A model generated the notes under the pieces. That model saw only the letters and a list, made by a program, of their open reading frames with translations. It ran no database searches and was not told where the DNA came from. Shown here piece by piece: positions 2,170-15,971 of a stretch of 17,837 bases of DNA (positions within the stretch are counted from its first letter, which is position 1; every line of letters starts with the position of its first letter). The DNA lies in assembly GCA_026415985.1 (NCBI GenBank), contig JAOAGA010000031.1, positions 1 through 17,837 of the forward strand, read 5' to 3'. The DNA comes from Pseudomonadota bacterium (GTDB lineage: Bacteria > CALINM01). Made by a program: the position numbers and the translations under genes.

Positions 2170-3864
2170 TTAATGATAAATCTTTATTTTTAATTCTTCC
2201 AGTTTTTCTTTTTTTGGAAAGCCATTGTTGTCCCATCCTCTGCCCCTGTAATACTCATCAAGCATATCATTATAACCATCAAAAATGAGCCTCTGTGGAA
2301 GTAGATCATCCTTTCTGTCAAAGCCGTTTAGGCAATTTATATATCTTTCAAGGTTATATATTCTTTCGCCTATCTTAAGGTATTCTTCTGTGGAAATCTC
2401 ACAGCCTGCATAGGCTGATATTAGTCTGGAAAGGTAGTCGTCTCCTACTGCAAGAGATAAGAATCTGCAGAAAATTGCGCTGTCTGCAGAAGAGTGTGAG
2501 TTTTGTAAATAGATTACCAAACCAGACTTGCCCTTCTTAATGAACCTGTTTTGTAGCTTTGGGATACCTAAGACCTCTACCGCTACCATATAGGCTCTCA
2601 GATGGCAGGCACCCCTGTTGGAAGTCCCGTAGGACAGGGCCATACCATAAATACTTTTGGGATGATAGGCAGGCAGTTCAAGCCCCTTTACTGTCATTGA
2701 TAAATCAGGTTTTTTAAGCTCCTTTGATAGTCTTAGACTTCCCTGAGCAATGAGTTTGCCCTCGTCTTCACTTCTTAGGGTTTTTTCTATTAATGAATAA
2801 ATAAGCTTATCATTTCCGAAGTTTAGGTTCATCGCTTCAAGATAACAGGCAATTGAGCCTCCTAATGATATGGTATCTACTCCATACTCATAACAGAGCT
2901 CATTTATCTCTATTAGTAGTTCTATATCAGATATACCTAAGTTGGCTCCCAAAGCCCAGAGTGTTTCAAACTCTGGTCCTTCTCCTCTATCAGTAACTCT
3001 CCCGCAGGCAACGGGACAGGACAGGCATGCCCTTCTTTTTTTGACATAACTCTTAAGACTTTCACCGGAGATAATATCTGCTTTATCGAAATGGTCTTCC
3101 AAAAAATTTTTATGAGGAAGAATCTTAAGCTCATTTATAAGATTCATCAGAACAGATGTACCAAAATCAGGAAGCCCCTTTGATGTAATAGGGTTTCCAT
3201 GTAACCACTTTCTGATTTCATTCTTAACGAAAGAAAATCTGTTTTCATCGTAAATACTGTCCTTTGCGTTAGCCAATTTTATTGTGATAGCGGACACACC
3301 TTTCCTGGCGAGAATATAACCAAGACCGCCTCTGCCAAAAAATCTTCTGTCAGAAACTGCATTTCCATAAAGAACACCCTTTTCTGAAGAGGGACCTATT
3401 AAAACTGACGAAATATTATCTCCAAAAAGCTCCTTTAATCTTTCTACTCTTTGAGATATTAATAAATTTTTTAGGGAAGAGTTGATAAATTTAACCTCTT
3501 CATTTTCTATAGCTATTATGCTCTCCTTTTTTGCCTTACCGATTAAAACGATACCGTCTACGCCTTGAGTTTTTAAGTAATACCCTGCTTTTCCACCGCA
3601 GGAGCTATCAAAAATGGTATTGGTCAGGGGTGATTTAAATACACTATGAAACCTGCCTGTCATAGGTGCCTTTGATAAAGTTAGTGGGCCCGTTAGGAAA
3701 AATACCGGCAAATCTTCAGGCTCTGTTTTTTTGTTGGCATAATCGATAAAAAGCCTGACCCCTAATCCCCTTCCTCCTAAGAAGTCTCTTAAATAATCGG
3801 AAGGAACCTCTTTTTTTTTGAAACTTTCCTTTTCTAAATCAATCTCTAAAAGTTTATACTTCAT
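2170..3864 (-). CDS. aor: Aldehyde:ferredoxin oxidoreductase, tungsten (AOR family)
   Basis: This 564-residue protein belongs to the AOR family. These cytoplasmic tungstopterin enzymes oxidise aldehydes to carboxylates, or reduce acids, using ferredoxin. The N-terminal domain shows FLGGRGLGVRLF (28-39), GPLT...APMTGRFH (59-73) and the CGGKAGYYLK pterin-contact region (89-98). FGRGGLGYILARKG follows at 176-189. The 4Fe-4S ligands are C280, C283 and C287 in ACLSCPVACG, with a distant fourth, probably C466 in AIFCRF. EFETLWALG (298-306) holds the conserved acidic active-site segment, and RGACHLRAY (418-426) is the second pterin loop. It is slightly shorter than typical 600-620-residue members, but all domains are present. 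The ATG lies inside the last codons of folK (11-base overlap) with no obvious Shine-Dalgarno, implying coupled translation. The substrate is unknown. The adjacent aldolase suggests a small aldehyde. Confidence 0.93.
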   Translation of the reverse strand: MKYKLLEIDLEKESFKKKEVPSDYLRDFLGGRGLGVRLFIDYANKKTEPEDLPVFFLTGPLTLSKAPMTGRFHSVFKSPLTNTIFDSSCGGKAGYYLKTQGVDGIVLIGKAKKESIIAIENEEVKFINSSLKNLLISQRVERLKELFGDNISSVLIGPSSEKGVLYGNAVSDRRFFGRGGLGYILARKGVSAITIKLANAKDSIYDENRFSFVKNEIRKWLHGNPITSKGLPDFGTSVLMNLINELKILPHKNFLEDHFDKADIISGESLKSYVKKRRACLSCPVACGRVTDRGEGPEFETLWALGANLGISDIELLIEINELCYEYGVDTISLGGSIACYLEAMNLNFGNDKLIYSLIEKTLRSEDEGKLIAQGSLRLSKELKKPDLSMTVKGLELPAYHPKSIYGMALSYGTSNRGACHLRAYMVAVEVLGIPKLQNRFIKKGKSGLVIYLQNSHSSADSAIFCRFLSLAVGDDYLSRLISAYAGCEISTEEYLKIGERIYNLERYINCLNGFDRKDDLLPQRLIFDGYNDMLDEYYRGRGWDNNGFPKKEKLEELKIKIYH

Positions 3865-5652: not shown

Positions 5653-5689
5653 ATATTGTGTTGACACATTATAAAAACTTAGGTAAATT
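5653..5689 (+). promoter_or_regulatory. Promoter and candidate operator of the XRE-cupin gene
   Basis: TTGACA (5661-5666), a 17-base spacer and TAAATT (5684-5689, 4 of 6 matches) form a likely promoter whose start site would be near 5696. The -35 box is embedded in an imperfect palindrome at 5653-5672. The left half ATATTGTGTT matches the reverse complement of the right half, ATAATGTGTC, at 8 of 10 positions. A dimeric HTH regulator bound there would block RNA polymerase, which suggests autoregulation. Promoter and palindrome are seen in the sequence; the regulator binding is inferred. Confidence 0.5.
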
Positions 5690-5699
5690 AAAAAAACCT

Positions 5700-6275
5700 A
5701 TGGATGAAATCTCCTTTGATATAGGGAAAAAGATAAAAGATTTAAGACTTAAGGCAGGCCTTACCTTAAAGCAGGTTGCAAAAGAGACGGGCTTTTCTCC
5801 AGCTCTTATCTCACAAATTGAAAACAACAATATTTCACCGCCAATTGCTACTCTTGCAAAGCTTGCCAGCTATTTTAATGTAAAAATCGGATATTTTTTT
5901 GAGGACGACACAACCCCTGTTAAATATACCGTCTGCAGAAAAAATCAGGGGAGAAGAATAGACAGGGTAATATCCAAAAGCGGAAAAAGACATGGTTATA
6001 TTTATCAGGCCCTTGCCTTTGATTTTCCTGATAAGACAATGGAGCCTTTCCTGATTACTTTAGACTCCGGAGTTGATGATTCGGAAAATATGTATAGCCA
6101 TAATGGTGAGGAGTTCATTATGGTAACAAAGGGTGAGATACTGGTTTTAATAGAGGGAGAAAAAATTAACCTAAAGGAAGGCGATTCTATATACTTTGAC
6201 TCCTCTGCCAAGCACAGGGTATTAAACTCTTCTGATAAAGAAGCTCAGATATTAGCAGTTATTAAGGAAAAATAG
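5700..6275 (+). CDS. XRE-family transcriptional regulator with C-terminal cupin domain
   Basis: The protein is 191 residues from ATG 5700. An N-terminal HTH_XRE domain spans residues about 8-65 (IGKKIKDLRLKAGLTLKQVA, then GFSPALISQIENN as recognition helix). A C-terminal cupin_2 domain spans about 110-185 (SHNGEEFIMVTKGEI, LKEGDSIYFDSSAKHRV). Such proteins bind operators as dimers and sense a small ligand in the cupin. A longer frame opens at GTG 5658, but that codon lies in the predicted operator and directly precedes the -35 box, so it would not be transcribed from this promoter. ATG 5700 is preferred. No Shine-Dalgarno precedes it, and the predicted transcript begins only about 4 bases before it, so the mRNA may be leaderless. 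The gene lies 8 bases from the next one and heads the methylmalonyl-CoA operon, its likely target. Confidence 0.87.
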   Translation: MDEISFDIGKKIKDLRLKAGLTLKQVAKETGFSPALISQIENNNISPPIATLAKLASYFNVKIGYFFEDDTTPVKYTVCRKNQGRRIDRVISKSGKRHGYIYQALAFDFPDKTMEPFLITLDSGVDDSENMYSHNGEEFIMVTKGEILVLIEGEKINLKEGDSIYFDSSAKHRVLNSSDKEAQILAVIKEK

Positions 6276-6495: not shown

Positions 6496-8445
6496 ATGGC
6501 TAAGAAAACAAAAAATCCAGTTAAGGTTGTAGATTTAACATTCAGAGACGGGCATCAGTCACTTTTTGCAACAAGGATGAGAACAGAAGATATTATCCCG
6601 ATTGCAGAAGAGCTTGATAAAGTTGGGTTTCATTCCATTGAAATATGGGGTGGTGCAACCTTTGATGTTATGCACAGGTTTTTAGGAGAAGACCCTTGGG
6701 AGAGGCCAAGAATACTTAAGAAATATATCAAGAATACCCCCTTTCAGATGCTTTTAAGAGGACAGAATCTTGTAGGTTACAGAAACTATCCCGATGACGT
6801 AGCTCAGGCATTTATTGAAAAGGCAGCAGAGGTGGGTATAGATATTTTTAGGGTCTTCGATGCCTTAAATGATGAGAGAAACTTAGAGTTTTCCTTTAAG
6901 ATTATTAAAAAATGCAAAAAACATGTTCAGGGAGCCCTGTCATATACCTTAACAGAAAGAAAGTTAGGTGGCGAAATCTTTAATATAGATTATTATGTTA
7001 AAAAGGCTAAGACCTATGTTGATATGGGGGCCGATAGTATATGTATTAAAGATATGTCAGGTATTCTATCGCCTTATGATGCCTATGATTTGGTAAAGGC
7101 TTTGAAGGAAGCGGTTAAGGTTCCCATCAATGTTCATTCCCATTATACAAGCGGTATGGCAACGATGGCTATGCTAAAGGCAGTTGAGGCGGGTGCTGAT
7201 ATAATTGATACCTGTATTTCTCCCTTTGCTCTGAGAACATCACATCCCGCTGTCGAACCTCTTTTCGTAACACTTGAGGGTACCGATAGGGAGATGGAGC
7301 TTGATTTGGAAAGAATCATAAAGATAGGGGAACACTTAGAAAAAATCGCACCTAAATACAGACATCTGATGGATGATACAAAACTTTCTATTATTGATGT
7401 CGGAGTACTGTTGCATCAGATTCCCGGTGGAATGTTTTCTAATCTTGTCAATCAGTTAAGAGAAGCCGATGCCCTTGATAAACTCAATGAGGTATATAAA
7501 GAGCTTCCGGAGACAAGGAAGGAGCTTGGTTACCCGCCCCTTGTGACACCGACCAGTCAGATAGTAGGTATTCAGGCGGTTCAGAACGTATTATTTGGCA
7601 GGTGGAAGATGATTAATGCTCAGGTCAGGGATTATTGTTACGGACTTTATGGAAGACCTCCGAGACCTATATCTAAGGATGTTCTCAAGTCAGCACTTAA
7701 AGGTTATGACAAAGGTGATAAGCCTATAGATAAAAGACCTGCAGACATACTTGAACCAGAACTCGAAAAGGCAAAAAATGCTGTTAAAGATATAACATCG
7801 GATATTTTTGATGTTTTGACCTATGCATTATTTCCTGTGACAGGAATAAAATATCTTAAATGGAAATATGGTATTGAGCCACTGCCAGATGATGTCAAAC
7901 CTAAGACTTTAGAGGACGTAAAGAAAGAGCAGGAACTCATAGAAAAGGCAAAGAAGGGGCTACTTATTGAAAAACCAAAGGTTGAACTTTCCGAAAACGC
8001 CAGAAAATTCAATGTTGTCGTCGATGGTGAGAACTATGTGGTAGCAATTGAAGAGATAGGCGGTGAAGTAAAAAAGACTGTAACAAAAGCAGTGGAAGTT
8101 AAGAGAGAAGAGCCTGTAAAGATAGAGCAAAAAGCTGAAACTAAACCAATAGAAAAAAAGGCTGAATCAGCTCCGGTAACGCCAGCTCCACAGCCTAAAG
8201 CAGAACCCGCACCCGCTTCCAAACCGGTGTCAGGGAAGGGGATAACTGCACCGATGCCGGGGATTATCTCAAGATATGAAAAAGAGATAGGTGATGAAGT
8301 TCAAGAGGGAGACGTAGTGGTTATATTAGAGGCGATGAAAATGGAGAACCCCCTCCATACAGAGATTAGCGGAAAGATTAAAGCCTTTAACTTTAAGGTG
8401 GGAGACTCAGTGAAAAAGGGAGATTTAATTGTTGTTATAGAATAA
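6496..8445 (+). CDS. pycB: Carboxyltransferase (PycB/OadA/5S type) fused to a biotin carrier domain
   Basis: This 649-residue protein transfers a carboxyl group between biotin and pyruvate/oxaloacetate. Residues about 1-480 form the HMGL-like TIM barrel and conserved PYC_OADA domain: LTFRDGHQS (14-22, metal ligand D18), EIWGGATFDV (49-58), LLRGQNLVGYRNY (86-98), the carbamylated-lysine segment CIKDMSGIL (K185) and metal ligands H214 and H216 in VHSHYTSG. A flexible Ala/Pro/Lys linker spans about 535-580. The biotinyl domain occupies the last 75 residues, with EAMKME and biotinyl-lysine K615. There is no biotin carboxylase domain. With the 12S-type gene directly after it, the pair looks like a methylmalonyl-CoA:pyruvate transcarboxylase in which 5S and 1.3S are fused. 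A two-subunit pyruvate carboxylase or an oxaloacetate decarboxylase alpha subunit is the alternative. The RBS is AGGGGGAG. Confidence 0.9.
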   Translation: MAKKTKNPVKVVDLTFRDGHQSLFATRMRTEDIIPIAEELDKVGFHSIEIWGGATFDVMHRFLGEDPWERPRILKKYIKNTPFQMLLRGQNLVGYRNYPDDVAQAFIEKAAEVGIDIFRVFDALNDERNLEFSFKIIKKCKKHVQGALSYTLTERKLGGEIFNIDYYVKKAKTYVDMGADSICIKDMSGILSPYDAYDLVKALKEAVKVPINVHSHYTSGMATMAMLKAVEAGADIIDTCISPFALRTSHPAVEPLFVTLEGTDREMELDLERIIKIGEHLEKIAPKYRHLMDDTKLSIIDVGVLLHQIPGGMFSNLVNQLREADALDKLNEVYKELPETRKELGYPPLVTPTSQIVGIQAVQNVLFGRWKMINAQVRDYCYGLYGRPPRPISKDVLKSALKGYDKGDKPIDKRPADILEPELEKAKNAVKDITSDIFDVLTYALFPVTGIKYLKWKYGIEPLPDDVKPKTLEDVKKEQELIEKAKKGLLIEKPKVELSENARKFNVVVDGENYVVAIEEIGGEVKKTVTKAVEVKREEPVKIEQKAETKPIEKKAESAPVTPAPQPKAEPAPASKPVSGKGITAPMPGIISRYEKEIGDEVQEGDVVVILEAMKMENPLHTEISGKIKAFNFKVGDSVKKGDLIVVIE

Positions 8446-8460
8446 AAAGGGAGGAGTAAA

Positions 8461-10020
8461 ATGGATTATATCTCTTTGGAAGAAAGATATAGAGATTTAG
8501 AAGAAAAAAACAGATTGGCTGAAGAGGGTGGTGGTAAAGATAAAATAGAAAAACAGCATAAATCGGGAAAGTTAACTGCAAGAGAAAGAATAGAAAAATT
8601 GCTTGATAAAGGTAGTTTTGTAGAAATAGGCAAGTTCGTAACACACCGTTGTAATGACTTTGGAATGGAAAAACAAAAGTTTTTAGGCGATGGTATAGTT
8701 ACGGGCTATGGAAGGATTGATGGCAGACTTGTCTATGTCTATGCTCAGGATTTTACTGTTTTTGGTGGATCTTTAAGCCTTTCTATGGCTGAAAAGATTT
8801 GCAAGATAATGGATCTTGCCATAAAAAACGGAGCTCCTCTCATAGGCCTTAATGATTCCGGCGGAGCAAGAATACAGGAAGGTGTTGGTAGCTTAGCAGG
8901 TTTTGCCGATATTTTTTTAAGAAATACCTTAGCATCAGGAGCAATACCACAAATATCAGTAATTATGGGCCCTTGCGCTGGTGGTGCGGTTTATTCTCCT
9001 GCAATTACAGATTTTATATTTATGGTGAAAAACACAAGTTATATGTTTATAACCGGTCCTGAGGTTATTAAAGCAGTTACCGGTGAGGAAGTAACTTTTG
9101 AAAAATTAGGTGGTGCCTTAACTCATAATGGTATTTCAGGCTGTGCTCATTTTGCATCGGAAAACGATGAAGACTGTCTGGCTCAAGTCAGAAGATTAAT
9201 AAGTTTTATCCCTCAAAACAACATGGAAGAAACACCCTTAGTTGATTGTAACGATCCTGCAGATAGGGTTGATATGTCTATCAGGGATATTATTCCCGAA
9301 AGCCCCAATAAATCCTATAATATAAAGGATATTATCTATAAAGTCGTTGACAATGGCGACTTTATGGAAGTCCATGAACACTTTGCAAAAAATATTGTCG
9401 TTGGTTTTGCAAGATTCAATGGCAGGGCGGTGGGGATTGTGGCAAATCAGCCAAATTATTTAGCGGGTTCACTTGATATTAACGCCTCAATGAAAGGGGC
9501 AAGGTTTGTAAGATTTTGTGATGCCTTCAATATACCCATCGTAACCTTTGTAGACGTACCAGGATTTCTGCCGGGAACCAATCAGGAGTATGGCGGAATT
9601 ATTAAGCATGGTGCAAAACTTATTTACGCCTATGCAGAAGCAACGGTGCCGAAGGTTGCAATTATAACAAGAAAGGCCTATGGCGGTGCCTACTGTGTTA
9701 TGTCGAGCAAACATCTCAGGTCTGATATAAATTATGCCTATCCTACTGCAGAAATAGCAGTAATGGGACCGGAAGGAGCGGTAAATATAGTCTTTAAGAA
9801 AGAGATAGACATTGCAGAAGACAAGAAAAAAAGAAGAGAAGAGCTGATCGCCGAGTATAGAAGAAAATTTGCCAACCCCTATAAGGCAGCTGAGTTAGGA
9901 TACATTGATGAAGTAATTATGCCGGAAATGACGAGGTATAAAATTATAATGGCTTTAGAGTCTCTTACCAACAAGAGAGACACTTTACCACCTAAAAAAC
10001 ACGGCAATATACCTTTATAA
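8461..10020 (+). CDS. mmdA: Acyl-CoA carboxyltransferase, methylmalonyl-CoA carboxyltransferase 12S / MmdA type
   Basis: The 519 residues match the 12S subunit of transcarboxylase and the beta/alpha subunits of propionyl-CoA carboxylase and methylmalonyl-CoA decarboxylase. It moves the carboxyl group between biotin and propionyl-CoA/methylmalonyl-CoA. Two crotonase-fold halves are visible. In the N-half, [28 protein letters not shown] and [13 protein letters not shown] give the acyl-CoA oxyanion loop. In the C-half, [23 protein letters not shown], the [11 protein letters not shown] loop and [14 protein letters not shown] bind biotin. It lies 15 bases after the biotin-carrier gene with GGGAGGAG as RBS. 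The '[15 protein letters not shown]' region is shared by propionyl-specific enzymes, consistent with the mutase and epimerase downstream. No MmdB-like sodium-pump subunit is nearby, so transcarboxylase is preferred over decarboxylase. Confidence 0.92.
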
Positions 10021-10150
10021 GATTAAAAATACGGTGATTAATGAAAGTTGTTGTTGAATTAAAAGGCCAAGATTAATATTTAAAGAAATTTTTTAGTCAA
10101 TCTTAATTATTGTCAATTAGTTAATAAACTTAAGATTACAGGGGGAAGGT
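10021..10150 (+). other. 130-base gap with possible internal promoter, inverted repeat and an 11-codon ORF
   Basis: This is the only sizeable gap in an otherwise closely spaced operon. It holds an 11-codon frame (ATG 10041 to TAA 10076, MKVVVELKGQD) preceded by a weak GGTGA. It also holds an 8-base inverted repeat, AATCTTAA (10099-10106) with TTAAGATT (10130-10137), and a weak promoter-like pair, TTGTTG (10051-10056), 17 bases, TAATAT (10074-10079). The downstream GGGGGAAGG ribosome site is strong. The gap may contain a secondary promoter separating carboxyltransferase from mutase expression. None of these elements is strong alone. Confidence 0.3.
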
Positions 10151-11809
10151 ATGGAAGATAAAAATGAGATATTAAAAGAAAAAGAAAGATGGGAAAATAC
10201 CACAGCAAAGAAATCTTTAGAAAAATTTCCTGAAAGGAAAAAGGATTTTAAGACCTTCTCAAATATTCCGATAAAAAGATTATATACTCCAGCAGATACT
10301 GAGTTTTCCTATATAAAAGATTTAGGTTTTCCCGGTGAGTATCCCTTTACCCGGGGTGTTCAGCCTACCATGTATAGAGGCAGACTCTGGACAATGCGTC
10401 AGTATGCCGGTTTTGGAACTGCCGAAGATACCAATAAAAGATACCATTATCTTCTCAAGGCTGGCCAGACTGGATTATCTGTTGCTTTTGATCTGCCAAC
10501 ACAGATAGGCTATGACTCAGATGATCCAATGGCTGAGGGCGAGGTCGGAAAATGTGGTGTTGCCATAGATACCATCAAGGATATGGAGATACTTTTTGAT
10601 GGCATTCCACTGGATAAGGTAACAACATCAATGACTATCAACTCAACCTGTGCAATTATTCTTGCCATGTATATTGCTGTTGCAGAAAAGCAGGGTGTTC
10701 CGTCAAAGGAGCTTAAAGGAACCGTTCAGAATGATATATTAAAGGAGTATATTGCCAGGGGGACCTATATATTTCCACCTGAGCCATCAATGAGGCTTGT
10801 AAGGGACATAATTCTCTATTGTAAGGATAATCTGCCTCAGTGGAACAGTATTTCCATATCAGGTTATCACATCAGAGAGGCGGGCTCTACAGCAGTTCAG
10901 GAAGTTGCCTTTACTCTTGCAAACGGAATAGCCTATGTCAAAGATATTACTTCCGCTGGCGTTGACGTAGATGAGTTTGCGGGAAGGTTATCGTTTTTTT
11001 TCAATGCCCATAATAATTTTCTTGAGGAAGTTGCGAAATTCAGAGCCGCAAGGAGATTATGGGCAAAAATTATGAAAGAAAGGTTCAATGCTAAAAAACC
11101 TTCTTCAATGATGCTTAGGTTTCACACACAGACAGCGGGATGCACACTGACAGCCCAACAGCCTGAAAACAATGTGGTAAGAGTGACCTTACAGGCACTT
11201 TCAGCAGTTTTAGGGGGCACTCAATCACTCCATACAAACTCAAGAGATGAAGCTTTAGCCTTGCCTACCGAACAATCTGCCCAGATTGCTTTAAGAACCC
11301 AGCAGATTATAGGTTATGAAAGTGGTGTTTGTGATTTCATTGATCCATTAGGTGGTTCTTATGTTATAGAGAGCTTGACGAATGAGATAGAGAAATCAGC
11401 TGATGAATATATAAAAAAGATAGATGAGATTGGCGGAGTATTAAAGGCAATAGAGAAAGGATATATACAAAATGAGATAGCTCAGGCCTCCTATGAGTAT
11501 CAGAAGGCTATAGAGACCAAAGATTATATAGTTGTAGGTGTTAATCAGTTTACCATGGAAGAAGAACCACCCAAAAATATTTTAAAAGTAGATATGGAAA
11601 AAGAGGAGTATCAAAAGGATAAACTGAGAAAGATTAAGACAGAAAGGGATAACAATCTCGTTAAAGAAAAGATAGAGGCTCTTAAAAAAGTTGCTAAAAC
11701 TGATGAAAATATAATGCCTGCTATAATTGAGGCGGTTAAGGTTTATGCATCCATTGGTGAGATTTCCAATGCCTTAAGAGAAGTCTTTGGTGAATTTAAA
11801 GAAGTATAA
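10151..11809 (+). CDS. mcmA: Methylmalonyl-CoA mutase, large catalytic subunit (separate from B12 subunit)
   Basis: This subunit catalyses the radical interconversion of succinyl-CoA and (R)-methylmalonyl-CoA. The 552 residues cover the CoA-binding TIM barrel and linker but not the cobalamin domain, as in archaeal-type split mutases. [23 protein letters not shown] (66-88) contains Y85, and [14 protein letters not shown] (199-212) contains R203. These are the Tyr and Arg positions that separate methylmalonyl-CoA mutase from isobutyryl-CoA mutase (Phe/Gln). [10 protein letters not shown] (237-245) holds the catalytic His, H240. The acyl-CoA contact region [18 protein letters not shown] and the [16 protein letters not shown] segment are intact. 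The C-terminus (about 480-552) is lysine-rich and would contact the small subunit. RBS GGGGGAAGG. It is followed after 9 bases by the B12 subunit gene. Confidence 0.95.
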
Positions 11810-11818
11810 GGGGGGGAT

Positions 11819-12208
11819 ATGAAAAAAATAAGAGTTTTAGTAGCTAAACCTGGCCTTGATGGTCATGATAGAGGAGCAAAATTTGTAGCAAGGGCTTTAA
11901 GAGACGCAGGTTTTGAGGTAATTTATACGGGTATAAGACAAACTCCGGAGCAGATTGTCAGCACAGCCATACAGGAAGATGTTGATTTTATAGGCCTTTC
12001 CTGCTTATCCGGTGCACATAACACTCTCTTCCCAAAAGTTGTAAAATTGTTGCAGGAAAAAAATGCAGAGGATATAATAGTTTTTGGCGGTGGGGTAATA
12101 CCTGCTGAAGATGTTGAGTATCTTAAAAGTCAGGGGATTAAAGAAATTTTTGGTCCCGGCACACCTTCGGAAATTTTTATTAACTTTATAAAGGAAAATG
12201 CAAAGTAG
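11819..12208 (+). CDS. Methylmalonyl-CoA mutase, small cobalamin-binding subunit
   Basis: A 129-residue stand-alone B12-binding Rossmann domain that pairs with the catalytic subunit encoded just upstream. The base-off/His-on signature is complete: LDGHDRG (13-19, cobalt-ligating H16, with D14 and G19), then GLSCLSGAH (about 59-67, the S-x-L element) and [12 protein letters not shown] (about 88-99, the GG element). The end [12 protein letters not shown] is usual for the family. The ribosome site is a run of seven G. Because all three B12 motifs and the adjacent large subunit are present, the mutase should be functional, provided cobalamin is made or imported. Confidence 0.95.
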
Positions 12209-12217
12209 GAGGCTTTT

Positions 12218-12634
12218 ATGTATAAAAAGATTAGTCATATAGGTATCGCTGTAAAAGATTTGAATGAGTCATCTAAGTTTTATACTGAAACTTTAGGATG
12301 GGAGATGGAAGGAGTAGAGGAGGTACCTGACCAAAAAGTGAAAGTATGCTTTTTCACAATAGGAGAGACAAGGATAGAACTCGTTCAGCCTACGGAAGAA
12401 GGAACTGGAGTTTATAAGTTTCTTGAAGAGAAGGGTTTTAAAGATACTGTTCATCACATTGCCTATGAGGTAGATGATGTGGAGAAGGAAATTGAAAGGT
12501 TAAAGAGCATAGGAACCAAGCTTATAGATGAGAAGCCAAGAAAGGGTGCACATAATATGTTGATTGCCTTTCTTCATCCAAAATCAAGTAATGGTGTTCT
12601 CATAGAGATATGTCAGCCAATGGAAAAACATTAA
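12218..12634 (+). CDS. mce: Methylmalonyl-CoA epimerase
   Basis: The enzyme interconverts (R)- and (S)-methylmalonyl-CoA, linking the mutase to the carboxyltransferase. The 138 residues form two VOC (glyoxalase-like) modules. Metal ligands fit the family pattern: H7 in SHIGIAV, a ligand in the IELVQP strand (about 53-58), H80 in VHHIAYEV and E130 in GVLIEICQ. The short form is normal for bacterial epimerases. A TAGGAGG site precedes the ATG. It sits 9 bases from the mutase small subunit and 15 bases before etfB, so it belongs to the same transcript. Confidence 0.93.
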   Translation: MYKKISHIGIAVKDLNESSKFYTETLGWEMEGVEEVPDQKVKVCFFTIGETRIELVQPTEEGTGVYKFLEEKGFKDTVHHIAYEVDDVEKEIERLKSIGTKLIDEKPRKGAHNMLIAFLHPKSSNGVLIEICQPMEKH

Positions 12635-12649
12635 TAAAGGGGGTTAAAG

Positions 12650-13465
12650 GTGAGAGTAGTTGTTTGTATTAAACAGGTTCCCGACACAACGGAAGTAAAG
12701 ATTAATCCTGAAACAAATACCCTTATGCGTGAGGGGGTTCAGTCTATTGTGAATCCTTTTGATGAGTTTGCAATAGAGGAGGGTATCAGGATTCAAGAAA
12801 AGTTTGGTGGAGAACCCATTGTTATTACAATGGGTCCTCCTCAGGCAGAAGAGGCTTTAAAAACTGCCCTTGCTATGGGCTGTGATAAGGCATATCTTGT
12901 ATCTGACAGAGCCTTTGCAGGATCAGACACACTTGCGACAGCCTATACCTTGGCATCGGCTATCAAAAAGATTGAGCAGACAGATGGACCAGTTGATGTT
13001 GTTTTGTGTGGTAAACAGGCAATCGATGGTGATACCGGACAGGTTGGACCGGGAATAGCGGTAAGAATGAATATTCCCCCTCTGACCTATGTCTCAAAAA
13101 TCAGGGAGATTGATCCGGAAAAAAAGACCATAATAGTAGAGAGACTTATGGAAAGAGGCAAGGAAGTTGTTAAATGTTCGTTACCGGTTTTAATTACGGT
13201 TGTCAAAGATATTAACTCACCAAGGTATCCGTCACTCTTCGAAATCAAAAAGGCAGCCAAAAAACCTATGATAAAGTTAGGTCTGGCTGATATTGGAATC
13301 CCCGAAAACAGGACAGGGCTTAAAGGGTCTCCTACATGGGTAAATAAGGTTTTCTCTCCTGAACTTAAAAGCGTAAACGGAGAGATTTTTCAGGGTGATC
13401 CAGAAGAGTGTGCTGTTAAACTTGTTGACAGATTAATTAATTTAGGTAAAGGAGTAAGTCTATGA
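12650..13465 (+). CDS. etfB: Electron transfer flavoprotein, beta subunit
   Basis: A 271-residue EtfB/FixA-family protein; with EtfA it carries electrons between acyl-CoA dehydrogenases and other redox partners. Family landmarks are the N-terminal VVVCIKQVPDT (about 3-13), the nucleotide-site NPFDEFAIEEGIRI (about 36-49), and GKQAIDGDTGQVGPGIA (about 121-137). The start is GTG (12650) with AAGGGGG upstream; the protein aligns from MRVVVCIKQVPDT, which fits this start. Length and the DGDTGQVGP loop resemble anaerobe Etfs of the type that bind a second FAD and may bifurcate electrons. That is an inference from general resemblance, not a test of the diagnostic residues. It overlaps etfA by 4 bases (ATGA). 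Confidence 0.93.
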   Translation: MRVVVCIKQVPDTTEVKINPETNTLMREGVQSIVNPFDEFAIEEGIRIQEKFGGEPIVITMGPPQAEEALKTALAMGCDKAYLVSDRAFAGSDTLATAYTLASAIKKIEQTDGPVDVVLCGKQAIDGDTGQVGPGIAVRMNIPPLTYVSKIREIDPEKKTIIVERLMERGKEVVKCSLPVLITVVKDINSPRYPSLFEIKKAAKKPMIKLGLADIGIPENRTGLKGSPTWVNKVFSPELKSVNGEIFQGDPEECAVKLVDRLINLGKGVSL

Positions 13466-14649
13466 GCTATGTTACCATAAATAAAGAAGCCTGTATCGGA
13501 TGTGGTGCCTGTGTTGATGTGTGCCCACAATCCGCCTTATATATGAAAGATGATAAAGTAGAAGTTAATGAAAAGTGCAATCTATGTGGAGCCTGTATAG
13601 ATGCCTGCCCTGTAAACGCCTTGTCTATCCCAAGAGAGATAAAAGACAGTGCTTGTCTGGCCGATTATAGAGGTGTGTGGGTGCTCGTGGAACATGATGG
13701 CAAAAAACCGGTTAATGTTACCTATGAGCTCATAGGCGAAGGAAGGAAGTTGGCGGAAAAGAGAAATACCTATGTAGGTGTTGTCTTATTGGGAAACAAT
13801 GTTTCTCATATGATTGACGACTTGGGAAGCTATGGTGCGGACAAGGTTTTTCTTTGTCAGTCGCCCGTATTGGAACATTACAGAACGGAAGCCTATGGGG
13901 ATGTTATAGTTGATATGGTAAAGGCTTATAAGCCGGAGATAGTTTTGTCCGGTGCAACCACACAGGGTAGAGATTTAGCAGGGTTTGTCGCTACAATACT
14001 TGAGACTGGTTTAACTGCTGACTGTACCGGTTTAGATATAGATGAAAATGGCAACCTCCTGCAGACAAGACCGGCCTTCGGTGGTAACATTATGGCTACA
14101 ATTCTTTGCCCTAATACAAGACCTCAGATGTCAACCGTAAGGCCTAAGGTTTTTCCTGTCCCCGAAAAGACCGATAAGAAGCCAGAGGTTATAAACTTTG
14201 ACTTTGATTTCTCAAAGATAACTATCAGAACTGAAGTACTTGAATATTTGCCCTTTGAGGAAAAGATAAGCTTAGCCGATGCAGAAATAATAGTATCAGG
14301 CGGAAGAGGGTTAGGTAAACCGGAAAACTTTGAGATAATCAAAGAGTTTGCTGATACTATAGGCGCTGCAGTTGGTGCTTCAAGAGCTGCTGTTGATGCG
14401 GGTTGGATTTCCTATGAACATCAGGTAGGTCAAACTGGTAAGACCGTTAGACCCAAAATTTATATTGCCTGCGGAATATCAGGTTCTGTCCAGCATTTGG
14501 CAGGAATGAAACATTCCGATATAATTATTGCCATAAATAAGGATCCTGAAGCACCGATATTTAAGGTAGCAAGTTTTGGTATTGTTGGTGATGTAATGAC
14601 CATCATACCACTGATGACAAAAGAGCTTAAGAAAAGGATGAATGCTTAA
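13462..14649 (+). CDS. etfA: Electron transfer flavoprotein alpha subunit with N-terminal 2[4Fe-4S] ferredoxin domain
   Basis: This 395-residue protein is about 70 residues longer than a usual EtfA. The extra N-terminus (about 1-60) is a two-cluster ferredoxin: C11, C14, C17, C21 and C39, C42, C45, C49, each in CxxCxxCxxxC form. EtfA domain I follows (VWVLVEHDGKKPVN). The FAD-binding C-terminal domain follows, with SGGRGLG (about 276-282), GASRAAVDAGWISYEHQVGQTGK (about 306-328) and INKDPEAPIFKVASFGIVGD. Ferredoxin-fused EtfA is known from anaerobes, for example the caffeyl-CoA reductase Etf of Acetobacterium, where it takes part in ferredoxin-linked bifurcation. No acyl-CoA dehydrogenase gene is in the window, so its partner is unknown. 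A strong hairpin follows the stop codon, making this the last operon gene. Confidence 0.95.
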   Translation: MSYVTINKEACIGCGACVDVCPQSALYMKDDKVEVNEKCNLCGACIDACPVNALSIPREIKDSACLADYRGVWVLVEHDGKKPVNVTYELIGEGRKLAEKRNTYVGVVLLGNNVSHMIDDLGSYGADKVFLCQSPVLEHYRTEAYGDVIVDMVKAYKPEIVLSGATTQGRDLAGFVATILETGLTADCTGLDIDENGNLLQTRPAFGGNIMATILCPNTRPQMSTVRPKVFPVPEKTDKKPEVINFDFDFSKITIRTEVLEYLPFEEKISLADAEIIVSGGRGLGKPENFEIIKEFADTIGAAVGASRAAVDAGWISYEHQVGQTGKTVRPKIYIACGISGSVQHLAGMKHSDIIIAINKDPEAPIFKVASFGIVGDVMTIIPLMTKELKKRMNA

Positions 14650-14661
14650 TTTAGTTTCTCC

Positions 14662-14695
14662 GGAAGACCTTTGCAAAACTTTGCAAGGGTCTTCC
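14662..14695 (+). terminator. Rho-independent terminator after etfA, possibly bidirectional
   Basis: A 15-base stem, GGAAGACCTTTGCAA with TTGCAAGGGTCTTCC, has one G-U pair and the loop AACT. It begins 13 bases after the etfA stop. It is followed by TTATTTGATTT on the plus strand, a moderate U tract. The hairpin abuts the stop codon of the convergent cooT-like gene (14696), so it can also end that operon. On the minus strand the following bases (GAGAAACTAAATTA) are not U-rich, so it should terminate better in the plus direction. Confidence 0.85.
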
Positions 14696-14888: not shown

Positions 14889-15311
14889 TTATTTCTCCTC
14901 CATGTCTTTAATCTTTTCTATAAGTTCTCTGACCAGATGAGGGAGAGGCTCCCTTTTAAGACCGACTATCTCAATTTTTTCTTGTGATATAGGCACCAGA
15001 ATTTTTTTTGCCTTTGAAAGGGCTATACTTGTAGCCATTTTTTCCGTTAGCTCTCCTAACATAGAGTTAGTAAGTAAAATACTTATTGAGCCCACTATAT
15101 AATCACAGTTGCTGGTCACATACGATATGGCACTTTCTCCCGTTGCGCCTTTATTGGCACCTGAAGAAAGCATAGCCATAGTCGCAATGGCATTGGTTCC
15201 AAGGGCTATTATCTCAAAGCTCTCACCAAAACTCTTCTTGATTTCCTTTATAATAAGGCTTCCGATTCCACCGCCCTGACCATCTACTACAGCAATAATT
15301 TTTCTGTTCAA
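14889..15311 (-). CDS. DUF3842 family protein
   Basis: A 140-residue protein of unknown function. The N-terminus IIAVVDGQGGGIGSLIIKEI (about 4-23) is a glycine-rich, Rossmann-like nucleotide-loop pattern. It is followed by EIIALGTNAIATMAMLSSGANKGATGE (about 33-59), a run typical of DUF3842, and DYIVGSISILLTNSMLGE (about 70-87), which looks like a second buried strand. Nothing indicates secretion or membrane insertion. The start is TTG at 15311, supported by AGGAGAG upstream and by a 4-base TTGA overlap with the stop of the preceding gene. It often appears beside CooT-like genes in anaerobes, as it does here, and may act in metal or redox cofactor handling. No enzyme function is claimed. Confidence 0.78.
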   Translation of the reverse strand: MNRKIIAVVDGQGGGIGSLIIKEIKKSFGESFEIIALGTNAIATMAMLSSGANKGATGESAISYVTSNCDYIVGSISILLTNSMLGELTEKMATSIALSKAKKILVPISQEKIEIVGLKREPLPHLVRELIEKIKDMEEK

Positions 15312-15553
15312 GCTACTCTCCTGTAATTTTTTTCTTCTTCTATGTATATCTCTTCCGGAGGTTCATCCTTTAAAATATTTAGTAAATCGTTTAACCCTTT
15401 ATCAAAAACCTTTATAGCAAGTCCACAGTCAGAACTTAATTTCCTCGGAACAGGGATAGTCTTGCTATTTACATAATTTTCTTTTAATATCTTTTCCGCC
15501 CTCATAACCCTATGGACTGAGTTAAAAATTAATATAAACAAATCATTAATCAT
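15308..15553 (-). CDS. DUF3343 family protein, putative Se/S-carrier-like
   Basis: An 81-residue protein with the DUF3343 pattern: SVHRVMRAEKILKEN (about 12-26), IPVPRKLSSDCGLAIKV (about 33-49, with the single conserved C43 in a CG motif) and a short acidic tail. Database names for this family mention a sulfur/selenium carrier because of the Cys and its frequent position near selenium or sulfur metabolism genes; direct proof is limited. It heads the minus-strand trio. The ATG at 15553 has no Shine-Dalgarno, and a promoter-like TTGCTA, 17 bases, TATTTT lies just upstream, so the leader would be very short. Confidence 0.72.
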   Translation of the reverse strand: MINDLFILIFNSVHRVMRAEKILKENYVNSKTIPVPRKLSSDCGLAIKVFDKGLNDLLNILKDEPPEEIYIEEEKNYRRVA

Positions 15554-15698: not shown

Positions 15699-15770
15699 GC
15701 GGGAATAGCTCAGTGGTAGAGCATCTGCTTGCCATGCAGAGGGTCGCGGGTTCAAATCCCGTTTCCCGCT
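15699..15770 (+). tRNA. tRNA-Gly (GCC)
   Basis: A full cloverleaf. The acceptor GCGGGAA pairs with TTCCCGC, and the discriminator is U73, typical of tRNA-Gly. The D-arm contains AGCTCAGTGGTAGAGC. The anticodon stem TCTGC/GCAGA encloses loop TTGCCAT with GCC at 15731-15733. The T-arm is GCGGGTTCAAATCCCGT. No CCA is encoded; a T-rich stretch follows directly, so CCA must be added after transcription. Confidence 0.97.
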
Positions 15771-15783
15771 TTTTTGTTTTTTA

Positions 15784-15857
15784 GGCACCGTCGCCAAGTG
15801 GTAAGGCAGTGGTCTGCAAAATCACTATCACCGGTTCGAATCCGGTCGGTGCCTCCA
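15784..15857 (+). tRNA. tRNA-Cys (GCA), CCA encoded
   Basis: The acceptor GGCACCG pairs with CGGTGCC, with U73 discriminator and an encoded CCA (15855-15857). The anticodon stem GTGGT/ATCAC has one G-U pair and loop CTGCAAA, with GCA at 15816-15818. The T-arm is ACCGGTTCGAATCCGGT. It lies 13 bases after tRNA-Gly. Confidence 0.97.
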
Positions 15858-15867
15858 TTCTTTAGAT

Positions 15868-15952
15868 GCCTGGGTGGTGGAATTGGCAGACACAAGGGAC
15901 TTAAAATCCCTTGGGGCTTAGCTCCGTGCGGGTTCGAGTCCCGCCCTAGGCA
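15868..15952 (+). tRNA. tRNA-Leu (UAA)
   Basis: An 85-base class II tRNA. The acceptor GCCTGGG pairs with CCTAGGC (one G-U), with A73 discriminator as expected for Leu. The anticodon stem AGGGA/TCCCT encloses CTTAAAA with TAA at 15902-15904. The long variable arm GGGGC-TTA-GCTCC is present. The T-arm is GCGGGTTCGAGTCCCGC. CCA is not encoded. It ends 19 bases before the ugd start codon, with no promoter between. Confidence 0.97.
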
Positions 15953-15971
15953 CTGCTTTCTTGGAGGATTA

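Follow-up and report, generated by a model that had tools for sequence, protein, structure and literature searches.

A ferredoxin-fused Etf of the bifurcating group in a methylmalonyl-CoA operon, and a possible role in enoyl-ACP reduction

Which enzyme is served by an Etf that is encoded at the end of a methylmalonyl-CoA operon where no acyl-CoA dehydrogenase gene is found? The question is raised by the window, i.e. the whole stretch of 17,837 nucleotides analyzed here, which is the entire contig C86 of a 1.57 Mb, 161-contig MAG with an estimated completeness of 84%. The original prediction placed this Etf in a propionyl-CoA- or branched acyl-CoA-linked redox step. The phylum was sampled by three genomes, that of the window and its relatives G001 and G002.

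Operon organization

Positions 6496–14649 of the + strand display a seven-gene operon, pycB-mmdA-mutA-mutB-mce-etfB-etfA, with etfBA at its end. Each of the seven genes is preceded by a purine-rich ribosome-binding stretch. The intergenic gaps from pycB to etfA are 15, 130, 9, 9, 15 and −4 bases, the last being a 4 base overlap of etfB and etfA. The predicted position of etfBA behind mutase and epimerase genes is borne out, as mutA, mutB and mce precede it with gaps of 9, 9 and 15 bases. The operon and its flanking features are:

5658–6275, + strand: HTH-cupin regulator upstream of the operon (HTH_3 and Cupin_2), also found upstream in locus L006 (2363–2941)
6496–8445, + strand: pycB/oadA-like carboxyltransferase with fused biotin carrier (5S-like), first operon gene (Pfam HMGL-like, PYC_OADA, Biotin_lipoyl; PRK09282 above cut-off)
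8461–10020, + strand: mmdA-like carboxyl transferase (12S-like; Pfam Carboxyl_trans; TIGR01117 at 862.8 bits, below the cut-off of 998.8)
10151–11809, + strand: mutA, methylmalonyl-CoA mutase catalytic subunit (TIGR00641 above cut-off)
11819–12208, + strand: mutB, B12-binding mutase subunit (TIGR00640 above cut-off)
12218–12634, + strand: mce, methylmalonyl-CoA epimerase (TIGR03081 above cut-off)
14662–14695, + strand: terminator-like hairpin 3′ of etfA, a 15-pair stem followed by a T-rich tail

Neither a biotin carboxylase nor a membrane decarboxylase subunit is present in the gene cluster, thus the arrangement fits a methylmalonyl-CoA:pyruvate transcarboxylase. Loci L006 and L005 are from G001 and G002. 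The order of all seven genes is identical in L006, which represents a different genus, and the mutA-to-etfA portion is kept in L005. Identical gene order in another genus argues that the placement of etfBA is not due to chance.

Elsewhere in the window, an aldehyde ferredoxin oxidoreductase-family gene (AFOR_N, AFOR_C) is found on the − strand at positions 2170–3864 and is adjoined by a class II aldolase gene at 1567–2163. Also on the − strand, a DUF3842 gene overlaps a putative Se/S carrier-like gene (14889–15311 and 15308–15553). Genes for tRNA-Gly, tRNA-Cys and tRNA-Leu are clustered at 15699–15953; a long open reading frame that starts at 15729 runs through this cluster and its N-terminus is therefore not protein coding. 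L006 has a CO dehydrogenase-like catalytic subunit and a CooF-like ferredoxin (16739–18643, named by eye) several kb past etfA.

Properties of the ferredoxin-fused Etf

The two genes and their motifs are positioned as follows:

12650–13465, + strand: etfB, Group 2 (bifurcating-type) Etf beta, 271 aa, GTG start (PF01012; best PDB matches 7koe and 6fah)
12728–12739, + strand: EtfB motif RxGV (REGV), residue 27 (motif from PMC10734219)
13316–13342, + strand: EtfB motif GxxGSPTxV (GLKGSPTWV), residue 223, at the hinge (motif from PMC10734219)
13462–14649, + strand: etfA, ferredoxin-fused Group 2 Etf alpha, 395 aa (two Fer4, ETF, ETF_alpha)
13492–13524, + strand: first 4Fe-4S motif CIGCGACVDVC (CxxCxxCxxxC), EtfA residues 11–21
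13576–13608, + strand: second 4Fe-4S motif CNLCGACIDAC (CxxCxxCxxxC), EtfA residues 39–49
14068–14085, + strand: EtfA motif RPxFGG (RPAFGG), residue 203, which holds the critical Arg (motif from PMC10734219)

By Pfam, EtfA has two N-terminal Fer4 stretches, followed by the ETF and then the ETF_alpha domain. The closest match is CarE (PDB 6fah chain A, E-value = 2.5e-123), which aligns over nearly the full length including the ferredoxin part; the predicted fusion with two CxxCxxCxxxC clusters, of the caffeyl-CoA reductase type, is thus confirmed. The closest solved relatives of EtfB are the T. maritima EtfABCX (7koe) and CarD (6fah).

In Group 2 Etfs one subunit is marked by RXGV and GXXSPTXV and its partner by RPXFGG, whose Arg T. 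maritima requires for bifurcation (PMC10734219). GXXSPTXV is the printed form of the second motif; the aligned form used here is GxxGSPTxV. All three motifs are present in EtfB/EtfA, and none is found in three canonical plasmid-encoded Etfs or in a second Etf of G002. A comparison of EtfB with bifurcating-group signatures, which had been proposed as a check, gives both RxGV and GxxGSPTxV, and these are absent from the three canonical EtfBs. Rhizobial FixAB and a Sporomusa Etf also carry the Group 2 motifs. At the level of sequence, the assignment of EtfBA as a ferredoxin-fused Etf of the bifurcating group is well supported.

One EtfAB was detected in the genome of the window and one EtfA at E ≤ 1e-30 in G001. 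The second EtfBA of G002 is on contig C215 (L012/L054), which ends within etfA; it is located beside another acyl-CoA dehydrogenase and crotonase-like and thiolase-like genes, and displays neither the Group 2 motifs nor the ferredoxin fusion.

Candidate partners of the Etf

The original prediction noted the lack of an acyl-CoA dehydrogenase. This is correct for the operon and contig, but not for the genome: the search for a partner that it called for yields two, on contigs C120 and C137, both outside of the etfBA operon and both with orthologues in both relatives. GC contents of the window, C137 and C120 are 37.8–38.4%, and tetranucleotide profiles correlate at 0.88 (C137) and 0.94 (C120), which makes mis-binning of either contig unlikely.

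Judged by the nearest solved structures, the C120 enzyme is a glutaryl-CoA dehydrogenase; its gene adjoins a branched-chain-type ABC transporter gene. The orthologues in G001 and G002 show 89–90% identity. The C137 enzyme is encoded between fabH and fabD in the order plsX-fabH-acyl-CoA dehydrogenase-fabD-fabG, which is kept in all three genomes; where the fab contigs continue in the relatives, acpP and then fabF follow fabG. This fab-operon dehydrogenase is closest to the Bcd subunits of the bifurcating complexes 5ol2 and 4l1f, with 401 bits for Bcd vs 326 bits for CarC.

With these as the dehydrogenases available to the Etf, the predicted propionyl-CoA- or branched acyl-CoA-linked step, a bifurcating or confurcating reaction within the propionate/succinate pathway, is very unlikely. 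It would account for the operon position, kept in L006 and from mutA to etfA in L005, and for the bifurcating-type Etf. A second operon in the relatives, described below, could also be brought in its favor. However, the genome of the window holds only the fab and glutaryl-CoA types, and models of acryloyl/propionyl-CoA reductase score far below their NCBIfam equivalog cut-offs (AcrA 364.7 of 600, AcrB 229.6 of 475 and AcrC 444.9 of 640 bits). To our knowledge, the pathway from pyruvate through methylmalonyl-CoA to succinyl-CoA has no Etf-using step. Of the predicted electron bifurcation or confurcation, the bifurcating type of the Etf stands by its Group 2 motifs, but the tie to propionate metabolism does not.

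In the second operon (L047 of G001, L051 of G002) another acyl-CoA dehydrogenase has a MeaB-like GTPase and a crotonase as neighbors, and in L051 it is also behind mutB. These additional dehydrogenases were not found by the acyl-CoA dehydrogenase search in the genome of the window.

Known Etf complexes offer further candidates. CarCDE of Acetobacterium woodii (6fah) is similar in having a Group 2 Etf with an N-terminal two-cluster ferredoxin domain in EtfA. CarC is encoded together with CarDE, whereas the operon of the window has no CarC-type dehydrogenase; since the two dehydrogenases of the genome are Bcd-like and glutaryl-CoA types, the former nearer to Bcd than to CarC, a caffeyl-CoA reductase complex was rejected; the model scores for such a name are likewise under their cut-offs. 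EtfABCX of Thermotoga (7koe) and rhizobial FixABCX share the Group 2 motifs, but FixB has no ferredoxin fusion. An ETF-QO-like EtfC was rejected as partner because its ferredoxin domain, PF05187, was not found in the three phylum genomes, with a positive Thermotoga control. The Bcd-EtfAB complexes of Clostridioides difficile (5ol2) and Acidaminococcus (4kpu and 4l1f) have an Etf of the same group and give the best match of the fab-operon dehydrogenase. However, their EtfA chains have no match to the ferredoxin part of the window EtfA, and their substrate is crotonyl-CoA, whereas here it is probably an ACP thioester.

Ldh-EtfAB (LctBCD, 7qh2), a confurcating complex, also has a ferredoxin domain in EtfA, although LctC has one cluster and the window EtfA two. 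Both LctC and LctB rank with the top PDB matches, and a lactate or glycolate dehydrogenase (LctD/GlcD) as in Acetobacterium would convert lactate to pyruvate and so feed the transcarboxylase pathway. This partner is improbable in the extreme: a search for an LctD homologue by FAD-oxidase_C (PF02913) finds no such protein in the genome but is positive in 11 of 14 controls.

Fatty acid synthesis is the other setting in which a partner is encoded, and here the standard enoyl-ACP reductases are missing from what was found. FabK is located near fabH and fabD in some Firmicutes, the position held here by the acyl-CoA dehydrogenase. Among the PF13561 short-chain dehydrogenases of the three phylum genomes there is no FabI or FabL; the matches are FabG-like, a second FabG-like copy or, in G001, a weak broken match. 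FabG is likewise the sole match of the short-chain dehydrogenase search in an Omnitrophota genome (G003). FabK was not found above cut-off in the three genomes (PF03060; TIGR03151). FabV (PF12241) gives no match in the phylum genomes, which is uninformative as control genomes are equally silent. Given its fab position and the failure to find FabI, FabL or FabK, the acyl-CoA dehydrogenase is the best candidate for enoyl reduction, and on the grounds of context and of gene absence in incomplete genomes it may be an Etf-dependent enoyl-ACP reductase. A literature search gave nothing relevant on an acyl-CoA dehydrogenase as enoyl-ACP reductase or on Omnitrophota with such a system.

PF03060 does detect one full-size FabX-like protein in each of the three genomes (L032 at 1489–2574, L033 and L034), and the G001 copy matches H. 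pylori FabX with an E-value of 2e-65. If this protein were the enoyl-ACP reductase, the fab-operon dehydrogenase and the Etf could run backwards on acyl-ACP, e.g. for unsaturation, or act on another acyl thioester. In line with this, FabX and FabK have a common barrel and catalytic histidine (PMC8626469), and the best NCBIfam match is the FabK family TIGR03151. However, this match is only 118.9 bits vs a cut-off of 453.1, the protein has aligned counterparts of just two of the four cysteines of the H. pylori FabX 4Fe-4S cluster, and no fab genes flank the FabX-like gene in the stretches read. H. pylori FabX is itself a dehydrogenase/isomerase that forms the double bond of unsaturated fatty acids and not a regular enoyl reductase (PMC8626469), and is thus not expected to replace FabI. 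A FabX-like enoyl-ACP reductase is accordingly judged improbable, although the FabX-like protein is the chief competitor of the dehydrogenase for this step.

A purely catabolic Etf has more in its favor, but is still considered unlikely. Here glutaryl-CoA dehydrogenase would pass electrons to the Etf and from there to quinone by way of an EtfD/EMO-like protein, or the Etf would confurcate these, together with those of reduced ferredoxin, to NADH. Another role would be left for the fab-operon dehydrogenase. Glutaryl-CoA dehydrogenase is present in all three genomes, and about 2.3–2.4 kb from it G001 and G002 encode an EtfD/EMO-like protein, which displays NarI-like, Fer4_8 and two CCG domains in the G001 copy; the G002 copy is assigned by sequence. 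Its sole solved relative is the mycobacterial EtfD (PDB 9OJN), and EMO of syntrophs transfers electrons between Etf and methylmenaquinone (PMC8805022). A quinone route is therefore possible in the two relatives. An Etf that serves solely a membrane quinone oxidoreductase, which the original prediction regarded as contrary to its proposal, appears unlikely: a classical ETF-QO was not found in the three genomes, but the EtfD/EMO-like protein is found in two relatives. An RnfC/NuoF-type NADH module is present in G002, but the search gave none for G001 or the genome of the window.

The glutaryl-CoA may itself derive from aromatic degradation. On contig C85 (L055, 4381–8262) genes for a thiolase, a FabG-like short-chain dehydrogenase, an enoyl-CoA hydratase (crotonase) and a 6-hydroxycyclohex-1-ene-1-carbonyl-CoA dehydrogenase are in a row, the last with TIGR03201 above cut-off. 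This gene set suggests that the rare phylum has an anaerobic benzoyl-CoA pathway, and agrees with a catabolic Etf. However, a purely catabolic role does not account for a Bcd-like enzyme in the fab operon or for the missing standard enoyl-ACP reductase, nor for the pairing of the Omnitrophota Etf with a Bcd-like orthologue (see below).

In L049 (4534–6441) and L053 (9202–11112) the gene for the EtfD/EMO-like membrane Fe-S protein, near glutaryl-CoA dehydrogenase, is beside those for a multihaem cytochrome c, DmsB-like and NrfD-like proteins and a molybdopterin oxidoreductase.

Omnitrophota loci and the proposed role of the Etf

A scan of genome contigs gave an Omnitrophota locus in which fabG, fabF, an acyl-CoA dehydrogenase gene, etfB and a ferredoxin-fused etfA are consecutive. 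A matching EtfA is found at E ≤ 1e-70 in 183 of 285 Omnitrophota genomes. Forty loci were read, 39 from the match list, mostly evenly spaced, together with L007. EtfB is directly upstream of EtfA in all 40, and a same-strand acyl-CoA dehydrogenase is upstream in 34; the remainder have none within the upstream stretch (5) or stop at a contig edge (1). Both cluster motifs are present in 39 of the EtfAs and RPxFGG in all 40. FabF and FabG are further upstream in 12 of the 40. Many loci without fab genes have as neighbors a marC-like gene, glgC and an acetyltransferase-like gene (named by eye). As most of the sampled triads adjoin glgC or other genes, the fab linkage characterizes a subset.

The fab-operon dehydrogenase displays 59–68% identity to the Omnitrophota dehydrogenases and at most 50% to every other acyl-CoA dehydrogenase compared. 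Identity of the ferredoxin-fused Etf to those of Omnitrophota is 50–57%. In a maximum-likelihood tree the fab-operon and Omnitrophota dehydrogenases form one group (support 100/99), in which the former nest among Omnitrophota members, 10 of 11 of these being fab-linked (moderate support, 86/83); with the sampling of phyla used, this describes closeness within the set and not exclusivity. Thus Omnitrophota have an orthologous dehydrogenase and the same type of ferredoxin-fused Etf. The three genes are adjacent there, whereas in the window's phylum the dehydrogenase and the Etf are on different contigs, the former in the fab operon and the latter in the methylmalonyl-CoA operon. The occurrence of the Bcd-type dehydrogenase with EtfBA in 34 of 40 Omnitrophota loci supports the fab-operon dehydrogenase as a client of the Etf.

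From genomic context and homology we propose, with the chances evenly balanced, that the Etf is a hub for dehydrogenases encoded in trans, of which the fab-operon enzyme reduces enoyl-ACP. The sole Etf detected in the genome would serve dehydrogenases encoded elsewhere. Its first client would be the Bcd-type enzyme encoded between fabH and fabD, the orthologue of the dehydrogenase of the Omnitrophota triad, which would reduce enoyl-ACP to acyl-ACP in place of FabI or FabK. The second would be glutaryl-CoA dehydrogenase, donating electrons to the EtfAB in the catabolic direction. The location of etfBA in the methylmalonyl-CoA operon may then reflect co-regulation with fermentation or acyl-CoA catabolism and not a redox step in that pathway. 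The Etf may in this manner take up catabolic electrons and feed lipid synthesis, and may also exchange electrons with NADH, with ferredoxin and perhaps with quinone.

More tentatively, and with the balance somewhat against it, the dehydrogenase and EtfAB together could form a bifurcating enoyl-ACP reductase in Omnitrophota and the window's phylum, in which NADH reduces enoyl-ACP and ferredoxin together. NADH would reduce the bifurcating FAD of EtfAB. One electron would reach the enoyl thioester by way of the shuttle FAD and then the dehydrogenase FAD; ferredoxin would receive the other by way of the fused 4Fe-4S clusters.

A small number of anaerobes are known to have ferredoxin-fused bifurcating Etfs, which take part there in catabolic or fermentative steps; we know of no earlier link of flavin-based bifurcation to lipid synthesis, and the literature search gave none. 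If the trio does reduce enoyl-ACP, it would be a class of enoyl-ACP reductase beyond FabI, FabK, FabL and FabV, and if the reaction is bifurcating, membrane lipid synthesis would yield low-potential electrons. The trio is common in Omnitrophota, and for large phyla that are uncultivated it offers a clear candidate for the missing step that can be put to the test.
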